From: Bacillota bacterium
GTDB lineage: Bacteria > Bacillota > Sulfobacillia > Sulfobacillales > Sulfobacillaceae
Direction of reading: 5' to 3'
Assembly (NCBI GenBank): GCA_021820965.1
Contig: JAKACZ010000013.1
Span: forward strand, 1-64,000
DNA length: 64,000 bases
Below are positions 1-47,898 of this stretch, piece by piece. The notes under the pieces are model-generated. The model ran no database searches. It was not told the DNA's origin and saw only the letters and a program-made list of their open reading frames with translations. Both the position numbers and the translations under genes were made by a program. Each line of letters begins with the position of its first letter. The first letter of the stretch is position 1.

Positions 1-24
1 AGGGACGAAAGAAAAACCCCGCAA

Positions 25-127
25 GGCGGCCAAGAGGCCGCCACCCGTGACCGAAGGAAATCCCCGTGGGACTTGACCCCCTCTTGGCTATTGCCTAAGA
101 GGGGGAATGCGCGGGCATTATGTTCAA
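25..127 (+). repeat. IS200/IS605-like right end, omegaRNA-like repeat copy 1
   Basis: A perfect 7-bp hairpin (25-31 with 36-42) is followed by a conserved stretch and a second hairpin whose arms are CCCCCTCTT (77-85) and AAGAGGGGG (97-105), with an inner GGC/GCC extension. It ends in TTCAA at 123-127. A hairpin a short distance before a TCAA cleavage motif is the known layout of IS200/IS605 right ends. Copies lie near 47333-47433 (same strand) and 20804-20865 (opposite strand). The first hairpin stem differs in sequence in copy 2 but still pairs, as expected of a structured RNA. A tnpB gene could lie left of the window edge. The family assignment is inference. Confidence 0.5.
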
Positions 128-292: not shown

Positions 293-689
293 GCGGCATG
301 GGGTTCCAGTTTAGAATTAGTTTGCCACACGGCAGCGGTGGGGGTAAAGGGTGCATGTCAGCGGGAATGGGACACCTATGCATAGGTCTACAACGGCCTG
401 GACGACGTCATCGGCCTCATCGAGTACACCAAACGGGTCGAGTACCTATGGCCAGATGTGGTCCAGTACCAATGTGACGTCTATGGCAAGACCCAAGCCG
501 ACCATCCCCTTGGGCGTCACGACACTGGGAAAAGGTCTCGCCGCCTTCAACCCCTTCCAGTATCGTCCTCGACGACTCGGTCTGGATTGATGGTCCATTA
601 ACCGGCCGGCCTGTAGCGTGGGGAGGGCCCGGTGGCCGGGAATCCGTCGGAGAGTGTCCTCCAGGAAGAGGCTCGCGGCCGCGAGTCAG

Positions 690-880
690 CGCATGACTGG
701 TGGTGGCCAAGGCCCGGCGTAATGTACTACACAGGTCCAATCGATGCCCCGTCAACGTCTCCTCCAGCCCTTCGCACACGCTAGTCGCTGCTTGGGGGCA
801 TCGCCGTTCGAGTGCGGCCGCCAGTTTCTGCAAGGCCTTGAATCCTTCGCTGCGTCGGCTTCTTGGTAGACCCTGCACGG
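690..880 (-). pseudogene. IS256 (Mutator) family transposase remnant
   Basis: About 55 residues of a longer minus-strand frame read like the C-terminal part of an IS256/Mutator transposase. A stretch with ALERRCPQAATSVCEGLEE leads into a Leu-rich LxTLRRALATTS segment, matching the family pattern in which a helix ending in a Pro-Gly-Ala-Ala-like motif precedes EGLE-TL and the ATTN segment. The flanking sequence in this frame no longer looks like transposase, and the expected DDE catalytic residues are absent. It is a decayed fragment with no visible terminal repeats. Confidence 0.5.
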
Positions 881-1890
881 GCGTGAACGGACGGTCGCCT
901 GCATCGACTTCCCAAACTTTTGTAAGAGACCCACATCGGTCATAAAACATGAGCGGCCGCGATATAGGTGGTCGAGCTCTTTACATCACGCTAGAACGTC
1001 CGCTGGGGCACATTGCCAACGGTCTAATAGCGGCTGTCTTAAGGTCTGGCGTTCATTTCCAGGATTTCGGCCTTTCTCAGGCACATCAGCAATATTGCGT
1101 ATGTTCTGCGAATGTGATATGTTTGGCCATATCATCAGTTATATTGACGATGTATTACACAATTAATTATCGACTAAATATATGTTACGGAATTTGCCTC
1201 CATTAGCGGCACAACGTCAACCCCGAAGGAAGGGTTTCCTTGTCGGTGGAAACAGGATGGAAGAAAAATTGCTTGGAGCACGCGACGATGGTTCTGTCGA
1301 TATGATTGTGGAGGGATTCGTGGACAGGCAAGTCCCCACGGTCTCGGAAAAATGCTTTCTTTCCAACTCCGTCGATGACGGAGCCTATTTTCGCGGATAT
1401 CTGGAGGGAACCCCGGCTAGATACCGACGGATAGTCGGGCAGCTTGAAAACCCAGTGCGGGAAGTCAACGTTCCCGTTCTCTCCGGAAAAGCGTGGACGG
1501 GATTGGCGCAGTGTGGGATTAATCTTACGCACGATTCTGTCGTTGCGAAGGGCGCCAAATCACGAGATACCCGGGATGGAAAGAGTGGTACAAGAAGCCA
1601 TACAGCCATCTCGGTCTTAACGCTAGGCGACTTCAATCCCAAGCTTCAGCGGTGTCAGCAGACGTATTGCCGGCTTTGAGGCGGTATAACCGTGACAGTG
1701 GAACGGATGTAGCACAATAATCGCTAATGCATCTTAATATCTAAACGCGCTGCCGTCGTGAAGCGGGGCCTCGAAGAATCTAAGGGGCGGTACGGGCGGC
1801 AGCAGGGCCGAATGGTCAGATGTTTTTGTACTGAAGCAAAGCGCAGGTGTGTGTTGACGAGTCGTGGACGTGGGGGCAGGTGAAGTCATC
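880..1890. other. Decayed intergenic DNA with no supportable gene
   Basis: Short overlapping open frames on both strands have no recognisable domain and no clear ribosome binding site. The longest, a 165-codon plus-strand frame at 1182-1679, has no family resemblance. An AT-rich patch at about 1090-1190 separates the IS remnant from the kinase gene, but no convincing -35/-10 pair could be chosen. Confidence 0.5.
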
Positions 1891-2823
1891 GTGAGTAAAG
1901 ACGCTGAAGATGATGTGACGGTCTTGCTGCAGTCCGCGATTCCCCAATGGACGGGCAGGATCGCCCGGATCGAGCCGGTTTCGGGCGGGATGACCAATCG
2001 CAATTTTTGCGCCTGGGTTGACGAGCAGCTATTTTTCGTGCGGATTGGTGGTTTAACCACCGAGCGCCTGGGCATCAATCGCGACGTCGAATTTGCGGCG
2101 GCAGAGTTAGCCGGCAGGTTAGGGATTGCGCCCCCGGTTCTCTTCTATAGCGCGGATCGTGGCATTCTGGTGACAAGATATATTTGCGGTCGTGCTTTAA
2201 CCTCTGAAGAGCTCGGATCGCCTGCTGTTCTTCGTGAGGCTATCGAGCTCTTGCGCCGGGCTCACGCCCAAACACCCTCCGTGTGGCCGTTTTCCGTTTT
2301 CGCAACCATTGAGCAGTATTGGCGAACCGTACAGCGCTTGGCTCCGGAATTACTACGCACGTACCAATCGATCAAGTCGTTTGTGCGAGAAGTACAAGTG
2401 TTGGTACCGAATGAGCCTCTGGGGCTCTGCCATAACGACCTGCTGGCCGCCAATTTTGTACAAGAGTCGGACACGCATCGGCTCTGGTTGGTTGACTGGG
2501 AATATGCCGGCCTCGGCACCCTTTATTTCGACCTAGGCAACTTCGCATCAAATCAAAAGCTCACGCCTGAACGTGAAGTCTTGTTGGCTCAACTGTATTT
2601 TGATACGGCCGATCTTAGCGAACACGTGAGTCTGATTCGCCTGTTGCGGATCATGTCAGATGTCCGTGAAGCACTCTGGGGAGCGATGCAACAACTCCTG
2701 TCGCCGCTTGCCTTCGACTTTGCGCAATACGCCACGGTGCACTGGGAGCGGGTAGAACGTGCCCTGTCGGAGCCAGAGATGTGGTTGGATTTTGAACGAT
2801 TGAAGCGCGCACGCAAAACATGA
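1891..2823 (+). CDS. Choline/ethanolamine kinase-like phosphotransferase
   Basis: This 310-residue protein has the aminoglycoside-phosphotransferase/choline-kinase fold. The catalytic loop reads LCHNDLLAANF around residues 180-189, and the metal-binding segment WLVDWEYAGLG follows near 200-210. An SGGMTN-type glycine-rich loop near the N-terminus fits the nucleotide-binding strand. The family phosphorylates choline, ethanolamine or related small alcohols with ATP in the cytoplasm. The frame opens at 1864, but GTG 1891 is chosen because AGGTGA lies 7 nt upstream. The next gene, a dimethylglycine/sarcosine dehydrogenase-like enzyme, starts 13 nt downstream and probably shares the transcript, which points to choline-derived or methylated amine substrates. 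The exact substrate is inferred. Confidence 0.8.
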   Translation: MSKDAEDDVTVLLQSAIPQWTGRIARIEPVSGGMTNRNFCAWVDEQLFFVRIGGLTTERLGINRDVEFAAAELAGRLGIAPPVLFYSADRGILVTRYICGRALTSEELGSPAVLREAIELLRRAHAQTPSVWPFSVFATIEQYWRTVQRLAPELLRTYQSIKSFVREVQVLVPNEPLGLCHNDLLAANFVQESDTHRLWLVDWEYAGLGTLYFDLGNFASNQKLTPEREVLLAQLYFDTADLSEHVSLIRLLRIMSDVREALWGAMQQLLSPLAFDFAQYATVHWERVERALSEPEMWLDFERLKRARKT

Positions 2824-2836
2824 AAGGTGGACGGTT

Positions 2837-5260
2837 ATGAAGTCAGAGGCCAAAGTTGTCATTATTGGCGGGGGTGTCGGCGGTACCAGTATTGCCTATC
2901 ATCTAGCCCATATGGGTTGCCAAGATGTGGTGCTGGTCGATCGCAGCGAGTTGACCAGTGGGTCGACGTTCCATTCTGCGGGGCTGGTGGGCCAGTTGCG
3001 CGCATCCGTGTCATTGACGCGGATGTTGATGCACAGCGTGGATGTGTACCGAAGGCTGGAACAAGAGACTGGTGTCGATCCTGGGTGGCGTGAAGTCGGA
3101 AGTCTTCGCCTCGCCTCGACGCCTGAACGCATGGAAGAACTGAATAGGCAAGCAGGATGGGCAAAGACATTCGGCTTGCCATTAGAATTGATATCCCCCC
3201 AAGAAGCATACCAACTGTTTCCGTTGATGAATACCGCCAACGTGTTAGGTGCCGCCTATCTGCCTAGTGACGGATACGTGGATCCGAGCAATCTGGCGTA
3301 TGCGCTGGCTAAAGGGGCGAGAAACCTTGGAGTGGATATCTACACCCACACACGTGTGGTCGGTATCGACGTGTCCAACGGGCATGTTCGCGGGGTTAGA
3401 ACCGATCGGGGTGACATTAAGGCTGACGTGGTCGTCAACGCGGGCGGGATCTATGCTCGGGAGATCGGAGCGTTGGCGGGAGTGGTTGTGCCTATTATCC
3501 CAATGGAACACCAATACATGATCACCACTCCCCTGCAGGAGGTAGATGCTGCGGTGATGGCACGAATTCCAACCATGCGCGATCCCGACAATCTCGTCTA
3601 CTTTCGCAGTTGGGGCCATGGGCTGGTGATGGGCGGGTACGAACGAACACCTGCTCCCTGGGGACTTTATGGCATTGCGCCAGATTTCAACAGTCAACTT
3701 TTGTCACCGGATGGTGACCGGTTTACCGCGATAATGGAGGGCGCGGTTCTGCGGGTCCCCCTGATGGAACGCGCCGGTATTCAAAGTTTTATTAACGGTC
3801 CCGAAGCCTTCACGCCGGACGGTGAATTCATTCTTGGGGAATCTTTAGTGCGAGGATTTTTCGTCGCAGCGGGATTTTGCGCGCATGGAATAGCCGGCGC
3901 AGGCGGTGTGGGCCAGATGATGGCCGAGTGGATTGTCGAAGGAGAACCTTCGCTGGATCTGTGGAAAATGGATATTCGCCGGTTTGGCCCGCAATACCGA
4001 AGCCTTGACCTCGCACTGGCTCGCACCCGTGAAGTCTATTCCCGCTATTATGATATTCGCTATCCGCACGAGGAAAATGAGAGCGCGCGTCCGCTGAGGG
4101 TGTCTCCCGTGTATCATCAACTGGAAAAACTGGGAGCTACGTTCGGAGAGAAGGCCAACTGGGAGCGGGTCAACTGGTTCGACAACAACGACACCGGCGA
4201 CGAACGGGAGCGGCCTGGGGGCTGGGCAGGACAGGTGTGGTCTTCAGCCATTGGCGTTGAGCACCGGGCGACGCGCACGGCGGTTGCCCTATTTGATGAA
4301 ACCTCTTTCAGCAAGTTTGAGGTGGCGGGACCGGGTTCCGCGGCATTACTACAGCGTCTTTGCGACAATGATGTAGACCGGCCCGTGGGCACCGTTGTCT
4401 ATACTCAGATGCTTAATCGCCGCGGGGGTATTGAGTGCGACTTGACCATCACACGGCTGGCTCAAGATCGCTTCCGGCTCATTACCGGTACCGCGTTCGG
4501 CAGCCATGACCTGGGTTGGGTGCAAAAGCACATGCCTGGCGATGGATCGGTGACCATTCGCGACGTGACGGGAGACTTGGCCTGCCTGGCTCTTTGGGGT
4601 CCGCGAGCTCGCGAGGTGCTTTCAGGGTTGACCCGCGATGACATCGCTAACACAAGCTTTCCATATATGACCGCACGGGAAATATCCGTGGCGGATGTAA
4701 CTTGTCTGGCGGCACGCGTGACTTTCGTGGGAGAGCTTGGCTGGGAGTTTTATTGTTCCTCCGAGTACGCGAATCGGCTGTGGGACGTACTATACGCGGC
4801 CGGGCAGCCTCTAGGACTGGTCGCGGGCGGATACCGTGCCATCGACAGCCTCCGGCTGGAAAAGGGGTACCGGGTCTGGGGGTCGGACATTACGCCGGAA
4901 ACCTCTCCACTAGAAGCGGGCCTGGGCTTTTGTGTCAAACTGAGTAAACCGGACTTTATCGGACGTGACGCATTGGTCCGGGCTAAGGCTGAGGGCGTCA
5001 CGCGGCGTTTACGGTGCCTCGCTCTGGAACGACCGGAGTTCATTGCCGAGGGAGGTGAACCCGTATTTGACCATGGTCGGGTGACGGGTCGTGTTACGAG
5101 CGGAGGGTATGGCTACACCGCCCAAAAGAGCATTGCGTACGCCTACCTGCCGAGTGAAATGGTACCGGGAGACCGCGTACAGGTAGAGGTCGATGGCGAA
5201 CGAGTGCACGCCGTCATCGTACGTGACCCGTTAGTGCCAAAGCCCCCTGAGTTGATGTGA
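2837..5260 (+). CDS. FAD-dependent dehydrogenase fused to GcvT domain (dimethylglycine/sarcosine dehydrogenase-like)
   Basis: This 807-residue protein has two halves. The first roughly 400 residues are a DAO-type FAD domain, with the dinucleotide motif IIGGGVGG at residues 9-16 and a TSGSTFHSAGL motif whose His46 matches the position of the covalent FAD histidine in dimethylglycine dehydrogenase. The second half (about 430-807) is a GcvT/aminomethyltransferase domain with its C-terminal barrel, which in this family passes the released methylene group to tetrahydrofolate. The length suits the dimethylglycine/sarcosine dehydrogenase family. A GAAAGGTGG ribosome binding site precedes ATG 2837. 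The probable role is oxidative N-demethylation of a methylated glycine or similar amine. Dimethylglycine and sarcosine cannot be distinguished by eye. Confidence 0.88.
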   Translation: MKSEAKVVIIGGGVGGTSIAYHLAHMGCQDVVLVDRSELTSGSTFHSAGLVGQLRASVSLTRMLMHSVDVYRRLEQETGVDPGWREVGSLRLASTPERMEELNRQAGWAKTFGLPLELISPQEAYQLFPLMNTANVLGAAYLPSDGYVDPSNLAYALAKGARNLGVDIYTHTRVVGIDVSNGHVRGVRTDRGDIKADVVVNAGGIYAREIGALAGVVVPIIPMEHQYMITTPLQEVDAAVMARIPTMRDPDNLVYFRSWGHGLVMGGYERTPAPWGLYGIAPDFNSQLLSPDGDRFTAIMEGAVLRVPLMERAGIQSFINGPEAFTPDGEFILGESLVRGFFVAAGFCAHGIAGAGGVGQMMAEWIVEGEPSLDLWKMDIRRFGPQYRSLDLALARTREVYSRYYDIRYPHEENESARPLRVSPVYHQLEKLGATFGEKANWERVNWFDNNDTGDERERPGGWAGQVWSSAIGVEHRATRTAVALFDETSFSKFEVAGPGSAALLQRLCDNDVDRPVGTVVYTQMLNRRGGIECDLTITRLAQDRFRLITGTAFGSHDLGWVQKHMPGDGSVTIRDVTGDLACLALWGPRAREVLSGLTRDDIANTSFPYMTAREISVADVTCLAARVTFVGELGWEFYCSSEYANRLWDVLYAAGQPLGLVAGGYRAIDSLRLEKGYRVWGSDITPETSPLEAGLGFCVKLSKPDFIGRDALVRAKAEGVTRRLRCLALERPEFIAEGGEPVFDHGRVTGRVTSGGYGYTAQKSIAYAYLPSEMVPGDRVQVEVDGERVHAVIVRDPLVPKPPELM

Positions 5261-20803: not shown

Positions 20804-20865
20804 TTGAACACATGCCCGCGCATTCCCCCTCTAGGGGGATAGCCGAGAGGGGGTTAAGCGGGCCG
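20804..20865 (-). repeat. IS200/IS605-like right end, copy 3 (inverted)
   Basis: Read on the minus strand, the stem CCCCCTCT (from 20853) pairs with AGAGGGGG (to 20825). It is followed by GAATGCGCGGGCAT, shared with copy 1, and ends in GTTCAA at 20804. The loop keeps GGCTA. The upstream half is more diverged than in copies 1 and 2. No transposase or tnpB gene accompanies it in the window. Confidence 0.5.
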
Positions 20866-20927
20866 CAGGCGAACACATGCATATTGGGAATCAGCCAACA
20901 TATAGCATGGCCGGAAAACTTTCATCT

Positions 20928-20966
20928 GGCGGCGAGCGGCGGCGAGCGGCGGCGAGCGGCGGCGAG
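20928..20966. repeat. Four tandem 10-bp GGCGGCGAGC repeats
   Basis: The unit GGCGGCGAGC occurs four times head to tail, the last copy lacking its final base. It lies between the inverted right-end copy and the partial forward copy. It has no open frame and is not CRISPR-like, because there are no spacers. It is probably a slippage product. Confidence 0.85.
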
Positions 20967-20973
20967 TGCCTCC

Positions 20974-21014
20974 TGACCGAAGGGAATTTCCTTGGTCTAA
21001 CACAAGAGGGATAG
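20974..21014 (+). repeat. Partial copy of the dispersed repeat (copy 4)
   Basis: TGACCGAAGGGAAT at 20974-20987 matches the conserved block of copies 1 and 2. It is followed by a degenerate stretch and CAAGAGGG-ATAG. The strong terminal hairpin is lost. Its orientation is opposite to copy 3. Confidence 0.4.
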
Positions 21015-21042
21015 TCCCCAGGTCTTAAGGTGGGCCTGGACT

Positions 21043-46283: not shown

Positions 46284-47021
46284 ATGGAGCCAGGAGTCGC
46301 ACTACAAAGCCACCCCCAAGACTATGCTGACGAAACATGGCACGGCAGTGGGGGTGCCACGCTTCGGCAAATGGTCTTTGGAATGAATGATGGGCTCGTG
46401 GCTACTGTAGGATTGGTGGCCGGATTGATTTTTGCCGGCTCATCAAAAGGAATTGTGCTGGGGGCCACCCTGGCGGCCATTATGGCTGCGGTTTCGTCCA
46501 TGGCGCTTGGATCATATCTGTCGACTCAGGCGGAGGTTGGCTACCAAGAAGCGGAGATCCGTCGTGAGCAACGTGAAATTGAGGAACAGCCCAATGAAGA
46601 GCTGAACGAGATGCGACAGATCTATCGCGGATACGGGCTGACCGATCAAGAGGTTGACATATTTCTTTCCCACTTCGCCAGGGACAAACAACTGTGGTTG
46701 CGCTTGATGCTCCGCGATGAATTGGCAATCATTCCGGAATCCTTTGAAAGTCCGTGGAAAAACGCCGGATTGATGGCATTGGCCGTGGCTCTGGGGTCCC
46801 TGCCTCCTCTATTGCCGATTTTGTGGAGCGGCACCCCCAAGCATGCGTTTCAATGGGTATTGGTTTTGTCAGCACTCGCCGCCTTCGGGTTGGGCGCAAT
46901 CACCGCCCGTAGCACCACCCACCGGTGGTGGGCATCCGGCATTTCGTTTCTGGTGGTTGCATCCGTCGCCGCGGGCATCGGCGTGGGAGCGGGAAGTCTC
47001 ATCGCTCCATTATTCGCCTGA
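46284..47021 (+). CDS. VIT1/CCC1 family transporter (paralogue 2)
   Basis: This 245-residue transporter has LRQMVFGMNDGLVATVGLVA at the first helix and SSMALGSYLSTQAEVGYQEA at the second. A Glu-rich cytosolic metal-binding segment (EIRREQREIEEQPNEELNEM) is followed by three more helices. The family exports or stores Fe2+/Mn2+. ATG 46284 has GGGGAGG 6-7 nt upstream; the frame is open 60 codons further, overlapping the kinase end by 4 nt, so translation from the kinase junction is conceivable. Its position behind the two-component genes suggests co-regulation. Confidence 0.88.
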   Translation: MEPGVALQSHPQDYADETWHGSGGATLRQMVFGMNDGLVATVGLVAGLIFAGSSKGIVLGATLAAIMAAVSSMALGSYLSTQAEVGYQEAEIRREQREIEEQPNEELNEMRQIYRGYGLTDQEVDIFLSHFARDKQLWLRLMLRDELAIIPESFESPWKNAGLMALAVALGSLPPLLPILWSGTPKHAFQWVLVLSALAAFGLGAITARSTTHRWWASGISFLVVASVAAGIGVGAGSLIAPLFA

Positions 47022-47553
47022 GTCGATTGCGAAAAGAAGTTCCGCCGCTCTATTTGGCACGGGCTGGAGGGGTCGCTGATCGCCTGGTTCGGCTGATGAA
47101 AGGGCAACGACGAACATGTGCTACAGAGTGTAATAAGCAATGAACTCTCCCACCGCCTAATCCTTACAGATTGAGGCTGGGGTTTCCATGGTCGCCCCTG
47201 AAAGTTCCTGCTTCTACGATCGCTGCGCCGCGCAATCAGGCATCGTGCGTCTTATGCTGGGTCTCCCCAGGCATCGATTCGGACTGTTCCGGCCCTACGC
47301 CCTCATTGTAGAACAAAAGGTTTGGCATGTCTAGCCCTGCGGGCTCACCCGTGACCGAAGGGAATCCCCGTAGGACTTGACCCCTCTTGACTATCGCCTA
47401 AGAGGGGGATGCGTGGGCGGGCGGTATGTTCAATCGAGGTAGCTCTCTCTACGACGCGCAGCATTCACGAGTATGGATTTGCCTCATCGCATTCGGATAT
47501 CTTTACACAACGTACAACAAGTTTGGCCGATTCCCAACATTGCCTAACATATA
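47022..47553. other. 532-nt gap containing repeat copy 2
   Basis: Apart from the right-end repeat at 47333-47433, only short shadow frames are present. An AT-richer stretch follows the repeat and leads into the decayed HicB-like gene. Confidence 0.5.
47333..47433 (+). repeat. IS200/IS605-like right end, omegaRNA-like repeat copy 2
   Basis: Hairpin AGCCC/GGGCT (47333-47337 with 47341-47345) is followed by CCCGTGACCGAAGGGAATCC, nearly identical to copy 1, then the CCCCTCTT/AAGAGGGG hairpin and a terminal GTTCAA ending at 47433. The first stem has changed sequence relative to copy 1 while keeping pairing. No tnpB or tnpA gene lies beside it. Confidence 0.5.
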
Positions 47554-47898
47554 ATGTCAAGTTGTTTTGCATGGAGATTCACAGCGTTTATGTGCCTGAC
47601 CAGCTCCTTGGCAGCTTTGTTGGATCACGGTGATACTGTACCAGAAGTAGAGGAGATTGCGGGTTCTCAAGAAGATGATATTGTTTGGGTAACGCCGGAT
47701 GTTCGTGTTCGAGTGCCTTCATGGCTGCGGCAAGCGCGGGAAGCAGCCGGTTTGACCCAAGGCGAACTCGCGACGCGCCTCGGAGTGACCTATCAGGCTA
47801 TTCAAAAATGGGAGCGTCCAGGAGCTAATCCGACTCTCAGCACTTTGCAGCGTGTTGCCCGGGCCCTAGACCGTCCGTTGACTTTACGACTACCGTGA
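47554..47898 (+). pseudogene. HicB-like antitoxin with XRE helix-turn-helix, frameshifted
   Basis: The C-terminal part is an intact XRE-type helix-turn-helix: AREAAGLTQGELATRLGVTY then QAIQKWERPGANPTLSTLQR. Before it, GDTVPEVEE matches the HicB G-D-T-x-x-E segment, while the preceding strand (HSVYVPDQ, at about 47581) lies in another frame ending in a premature stop at 47631-47633. This is most simply a HicB antitoxin broken by a frameshift. The 114-codon frame might still give a DNA-binding protein. No HicA toxin is beside it. Confidence 0.55.

Follow-up and report, generated by a model that had tools for sequence, protein, structure and literature searches.

Three repeats as probable left ends of an IS605-type family in a Sulfobacillaceae genome, with miniature derivatives that retain a predicted promoter and omegaRNA scaffold

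Solo omegaRNAs are known from Ktedonobacter. In IS605-type elements (IS605 and IS608 of Helicobacter pylori; ISDra2) a Y1 transposase, TnpA, is associated with TnpB, the two genes being divergent in IS605, and the family described here has the same gene content and, like IS605, divergent genes. It also shares with them the subterminal hairpins at both ends and a right end (RE) that, as predicted here, doubles as the omegaRNA or reRNA (PMC8612924). The reRNA of ISDra2 is made of the 3' end of tnpB, the RE and about 16 nt of flanking DNA (PMC8612924), and common to TnpB scaffolds is a hairpin lying 10 nt or less from the 3' terminus (PMC10278001). A PATE-like element of Halanaerobium hydrogeniformans, which has no tnpA, is composed of a left-end (LE) hairpin, the last 58 nt of tnpB and the whole 160-nt RE (PMC7290912).

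We analysed a stretch of 64,000 nt, hereafter the window, at the start of a contig from a Sulfobacillaceae genome of 4.63 Mb in 101 contigs. A first-pass annotation had described three dispersed hairpin repeats (copies 1 to 3) as right ends of IS200/IS605 elements or TnpB guide-RNA scaffolds. It had the IS200/IS605, TnpB and omegaRNA family right but the end and the strand wrong: the three repeats are very probably left ends of one IS200/IS605 lineage, with copy 2 belonging to a PATE derivative. Copies 1 and 2 were found where they had been placed (25-127 and 47333-47433), and searching the DNA of the same genome with copy 1 gave 45 matches, while the entire mini-element that contains copy 2 gave 52. 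Copy 2 has a 19-mer core, GCCCGCAGGGCTAGACATG, with a single occurrence in the window, the chance expectation being 0.02 when up to 3 mismatches are allowed; searched as an exact pattern, the LE core was absent from the viral contigs searched.

The terminal GTTCAA hairpin was borne out by an alignment of 49 ends, in which conservation ends sharply at GTTCAA. Its outermost A (the T at position -1) is present in 39 of them, with almost no information further out. The LE information begins at -1/0 and the RE information stops at 0, the flanks being nearly information-free. The conserved sequence is thus limited by (T)TGAAC at the LE and GAGTTCA(T) at the RE, terminal motifs that distinguish this family from the IS605-type elements described above. 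The ACCGAAGG block ascribed to all three copies is present in copies 1 and 2 and missing from copy 3, near which the sole ACCGAAGG lies at 20976, outside the repeat and on the opposite strand relative to it. An upstream hairpin whose stems were said to differ between copies 1 and 2 while still pairing is not one co-varying helix: it falls within the tnpA reading frame (KAAKRPP codons) in copy 1, and the hairpin of copy 2 is a separate module (TAGCCC-TGC-GGGCTC) adjoining the promoter.

Table 1. Features of the repeats and their elements. Positions are those of the window unless a contig of the same genome (C number) is given.
Feature	Position	Strand	Basis
LE of full-size IS605-type element (copy 1)	1..127	- (tnpB orientation)	LE profile match 46-127; identity to G006:C232 LE
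Last 24 codons and stop of tnpA (Y1 transposase), GTKEKPRKAAKRPPPVTEGNPRGT-stop	2..76	+	translation
Solo decayed LE (copy 3)	20804..20866	+ (tnpB orientation)	LE profile match, 42 bits
Predicted guide (flanking DNA), TGCTTATTACACTCTGTA	47122..47139	-	directly 3' of RE, analogy with ISDra2 reRNA
Putative omegaRNA scaffold/right end, ending GAGAGTTCAT	47140..47288	-	RE profile match, 126 bits
Complete miniature element without tnpA and tnpB (PATE type), 292 nt	47141..47432	-	tips TGAACTC...TGTTCA on both sides
Predicted sigma-70-type promoter in LE, TAGACA-17-TACAAT, toward omegaRNA	47305..47333	-	10/12 matches
Left end with subterminal hairpin (copy 2)	47346..47433	-	LE profile match 47315-47433
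RE' hairpin (own genome, G000)	C64:34964-35120; C63:39452-39606; C52:54624-54470; C89:38751-38571	minus for C52 and C89

Copy 2 appears to be the LE of an internal-deletion derivative of 292 nt, which would consist of this LE, an inward promoter and a scaffold formed by the tnpB 3' end and the RE. We aligned the mini-element with 14 other complete copies; profile matches place its LE at the high-coordinate end and its RE at the low one. The LE still carries a relic of the TnpA C-terminus, PVTEGNPRRT-stop (47348-47380, + strand). Its promoter motif is the only promoter-like site in 46900-47600, where 0.5 would be expected in shuffles. The scaffold region, of about 150 nt, is a tnpB 3' remnant with RE hairpins and aligns with the tnpB 3' ends of contigs C64 and C2/C91 and of the genomes G006 and G002. 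It thus combines homology to the tnpB 3' end and RE, a conserved structure and a 3' end at the RE boundary, as an omegaRNA would. With up to 2 mismatches allowed, the predicted guide matched the genome at no other place, and therefore points only at its own site. All that the 292-nt element seems to have retained is a promoter and the gene of a guide RNA for TnpB. The idea that copies standing alone are solo guide RNAs survives in part: copy 2 makes up one half of a mini-element that lacks tnpB, the other half being the putative omegaRNA scaffold, whereas the repeat itself is the LE. A stretch just upstream of the LE in the earlier orientation, FGPLQPYVLIIKQKF, was considered as a tnpB C-terminus and dropped, because the other strand holds the promoter and the direction of tnpB is the reverse.

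The same genome contains at least 22 LE-RE pairs of 129-332 nt without tnpA or tnpB. Further cases were found in a Bacillota MAG (L119:1767-2034) and in G006. Like PATEs, they are too short for a transposase and have subterminal palindromes related to an IS605 element, their ends being homologous to those of full elements. Sisters down to about 70% identity show the same order of modules and the same junction between LE and tnpB 3' end, so that the unit is old and not a set of fresh deletions. Most of them have a -10 motif TAnnnT at the same 17-nt spacing (TATAAT, TACAAT, TACACT, TATAGT, TATGAT or TATACT); the -10 is lost in C83:2338 and the whole promoter in C52:19021 and C83:9157. Their ends share a 5-nt inversion, TGAAC/GTTCA, and their flanks are unrelated. 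Matches between relatives and the flanks of the window mini-element fall mainly in the neighbouring VIT1 gene (68-74%). When the flanks were joined for 15 mini-elements, no interrupted gene emerged convincingly, and no empty site was found. Insertion would be precise and without target duplication, probably into a TTGA-like target. The ends also swap hairpin modules: the LE hairpin has or lacks an 18-nt module, CATCCTGCGGATACTTCG, and the RE hairpin H1 likewise a 24-nt one, GCGAGCTTTACAGCGAGTGCTGGC (LE copies C32:2-128, C41:70097-70222, C62:14316-14441, C4:133201, C60, C46 and others).

On the minus strand, the RE of the window mini-element folds into a hairpin H1 with a GCGA loop and a subterminal hairpin H2, which stops about 9 nt before the boundary. 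H2 is closed by GAAC/GTTC, and this closing stem is invariant and thus uninformative on covariation. Out-of-register inserts in the raw RE alignment made the RNAalifold result uninformative; the stems were therefore named by eye from these sequences and then tested against shuffles. The set comprised 35 distinct sequences, of which 26 served for H1, and pairs with both bases altered number 5 in H1, 2 in lower H2 and 3 in upper H2. The observed pairing of H1 and H2 was reached by 0 of 500 shuffles, a result that is somewhat favourable since the stems were picked from the same sequences. Within PATEs alone the covariation is weaker, the H1 pairing being reached by 48 of 500 shuffles. H2 may be retained for TnpA; transposition is not known to require H1, which thus speaks for an RNA role. 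No Rfam family matched the window at gathering scores, or the scaffold, and a relaxed search of related loci gave weak matches only, outside the elements.

The family, orientation, boundaries and common junction of the elements were observed here, as was the conservation of their promoter motif and omegaRNA fold; their working can be proposed as follows. TnpA acting in trans would move the mini-elements by recognising their end hairpins on single-stranded DNA. The LE promoter would transcribe the scaffold together with about 16 nt of flanking DNA, and TnpB, also in trans and using this flank as guide, would cut sites that have lost the mini-element. Such a cut at an emptied site would lead to the mini-element being copied back. 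Since most derivatives keep the predicted promoter and omegaRNA, they could be stand-alone, trans-acting guide-RNA genes. We put this reading at slightly less than even odds; in it, the mini-elements would be mobile, promoter-bearing guide-RNA genes that capture a guide from their own flank at each insertion and borrow TnpB and TnpA from full IS605 copies; guiding in trans is proposed with the same reserve. With a guide from the flank and borrowed proteins, each would be a parasite of 270-330 nt with its own RNA-guided retention system.

Quite possibly, the mini-elements are instead inert relics of internal deletion, moved in trans by TnpA, whose promoter and omegaRNA survive only through having been carried along with the ends and serve no function now. 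This alternative agrees with the guide-RNA reading on what the elements are and differs only on what they do, and the confidence that we attach to the two overlaps. PATEs of Haloquadratum arise by repeat-mediated deletion of the core (PMC3119063), several of the present copies are decayed, two have no promoter left, and the covariation of H1 is weak when PATEs are taken alone. On the other hand, elements only about 70% identical retain both TAnnnT at its fixed spacing and paired omegaRNA stems, and the age of the unit indicated by the common junction is at odds with fresh deletions.

The origin of the derivatives may be reflected in a second omegaRNA-like copy, RE', found in the 5' leader of tnpB in the tnpA-less elements of contigs C64, C63, C52 and C89 (37-38.8k). 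Between C64 and C89, the stretch from the RE' hairpin to the start codon is 96% identical, compared to 86% for the start of tnpB and 78% for the RE. One PATE (C4:133201) shows 89% similarity to RE' over the 5' half and 91% similarity to an ordinary RE over the 3' half. If RE' and RE recombined, tnpB would be removed and the LE and the omegaRNA left in one step, much as in the repeat-mediated core deletions of Haloquadratum (PMC3119063), and PATEs probably arise, or are refreshed, through such exchange between two omegaRNA copies flanking tnpB. RE' could in addition serve as an autoregulatory mimic binding TnpB.

The contig starts inside the element of copy 1, within the 3' end of tnpA, and copy 1 would accordingly be the LE of a full element cut by assembly. 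The assembly is interrupted at this sequence at six contig ends, as a multi-copy element collapsed by the assembler would lead one to expect. No intact autonomous copy is present in the window's own assembly, where full copies lie at contig breaks. Another MAG, G006, provided a complete autonomous reference (G006:C232:374-2432), with the LE at 374-455, tnpA at 425-898 (-), tnpB at 951-2408 (+) and the RE at 2285-2432; both genes are open, and the LE is identical to window 1-127 over the common stretch. The C-terminus encoded in the window is identical to that of the 157-aa TnpA of L156:425-898 (PF01797, E=1.2e-39). As window bases 2-76 encode the end of TnpA, the ACCGAAGG block is tnpA coding sequence, namely its final codons, VTEGNPR(G/R)T-stop; tnpA C-terminal codons inside the LE hairpin region are a further difference from known IS605-type elements. 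Decayed tnpA genes precede the copies C39:19994 and C95:104229 of the same genome.

The TnpA of the reference element is a Y1 HUH transposase (PF01797, 135.7 bits; NF033573, 132.4 bits) that matches the solved IS608 TnpA with E=7e-19. Its TnpB, of 485 aa, scores 218.6 bits with the guided_TnpB model NF040570 (cut-off 100), matches solved TnpB and carries PF07282 (TNB zinc-ribbon domain); GGDRG, FEDLK, CxxC..CxxC and DNADHNAS, belonging to the RuvC and zinc-ribbon regions, can be read in its translation. As in the IS605 group, tnpB is divergent from tnpA. The autonomous form would thus be ordered LE, tnpA reading outward, tnpB reading inward and RE with the omegaRNA. The flanks of this element are identical to contig ends of the window's own assembly (C25:78k and C91:39.2k). 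Element and flanks being identical in two MAGs of one genus points to cross-binning or recent transfer; cross-binning is possible because the flanks are identical although the G006 counterpart of the window's neighbouring gene is only about 71% identical, and a binning error may thus affect this reference copy.

Wherever tnpB is present (C64, C63, C52, G002:C10 and G006:C232), the repeat lies 5' of it on the opposite strand. The elements of the own genome measure 1.7-1.8 kb (C64:34794-36599, C63:39282-41084 and C52:53067-54792), with a tnpB frame that is broken in C64 and C52 as read here; tnpB does adjoin several genomic copies, which answers a condition that the first-pass annotation had set for its own refutation. 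The repeat lies directly 3' of tnpA and takes in its last codons. As it precedes tnpB, reads on the other strand and holds the end of tnpA, the repeat is the left end. The other terminus has a sequence of its own (...GGCGGCGGGAGAGTTCAT), the right end with the omegaRNA. Many short copies have a further conserved tip, TGAACTCTCCCGCC, 127-332 nt upstream, and its reverse complement, GGCGGGAGAGTTCA(T), is found where tnpB ends. In G002:C10, profiles of the two ends recovered the layout LE, tnpB, RE. The LE hairpin has 4 pairs with compensatory changes, its pairing being reached by 2 of 1000 shuffles, and the H2 hairpin of the RE covaries as well, so that both ends have subterminal hairpins as in the IS605 group. 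An outer-stem test over all LE types, in which LE forms were mixed and some arms misread, gave 81 paired against a shuffle mean of 79.9, with no signal.

It is very unlikely that the repeats are right ends or TnpB omegaRNA scaffolds with a guide in the flank past TTCAA. Such a reading would account for the GTTCA ending, which is like that of TnpB right ends, for the subterminal hairpin and for the IS605 family, but in every complete element seen the repeat occupies the tnpA end and the strand opposite to tnpB, it is another conserved sequence, at the 3' end of tnpB, whose position agrees with that published for the reRNA, and part of the repeat is tnpA coding sequence. For a left end, no guide is expected beyond GTTCAA. 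That the repeats are REP/RAYT-like and mobilised by a REP-associated tyrosine transposase is extremely improbable, as the many solo hairpins and a weak REP_Tyr_transpos match of TnpA (32.8 bits, far under the cut-off of 80) are outweighed by 132 bits with the IS200 model (cut-off 55) and by two distinct ends and a tnpB, both missing from REPs.

Copy 3 matches only the terminal hairpin part of the LE. No partner tip was found within 2.5 kb, nor any RE or promoter, and copy 3 would be an isolated LE relic. About four tandem GGCGGCGAGC units (20930-20966) separate it from a next repeat, TGACCGAAGGGAATTTCC...GAGGGATAGTCCCC (20967-21015), which resembles the LE of a second IS605 family of the genome (C89:14.3-16.4k and C93, tnpA and tnpB divergent) and the matches C31:52312, C56:77121, C98:83251 and C62:2075; a genome search with the 20967-21015 sequence returned the self-match only. 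An IscB-like open reading frame with an HNH-like stretch, CAYCGATDVPLQVEH (C39:21111-22499, minus), adjoins the LE fragment C39:20892-21002. A weak match to HEARO, the IscB-associated RNA (36.4 bits against a gathering score of 83), lies just beyond the tnpB element of G002:C10 (about 4768-4986; L157:2769-2987). Finally, C95:38622-40411 holds an IS607-type pair of a serine-recombinase-like TnpA and a different tnpB.

Discussions of retention by TnpB usually concern elements with a tnpB of their own. If derivatives lacking the gene kept promoter and omegaRNA and used TnpB in trans, non-autonomous elements would share RNA-guided retention, and about 20 natural guide RNAs with known flank targets in one genome would form a ready test set for trans action. 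If they do not, the locus represents an ordinary IS605 family with its left and right ends now correctly assigned.

The architecture of the Halanaerobium hydrogeniformans PATE-like element is the same as that of window 47141-47432, with one copy there against at least 22 here, where the LE part is longer and includes the predicted inward promoter. The PATEs of Haloquadratum walsbyi (PMC3119063) are likewise transposase-free and high in copy number, with subterminal palindromes related to IS605 ends and, for some, an internal-deletion origin. Some of them keep only fused ends (52 bp), whereas most of the present elements keep the omegaRNA scaffold; the ends here also share the 5-nt inverted sequence. 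Like TnpB omegaRNA or reRNA, the scaffold comprises the tnpB 3' end and the RE, with a hairpin about 10 nt or less from its 3' end (PMC10278001); in PATEs, in contrast, it is separated from tnpB and has a predicted promoter of its own. The IS605 family described here is ordinary, and its PATE-type deletion derivatives match the published Halanaerobium element; less ordinary is that most of these derivatives keep a predicted promoter and omegaRNA.
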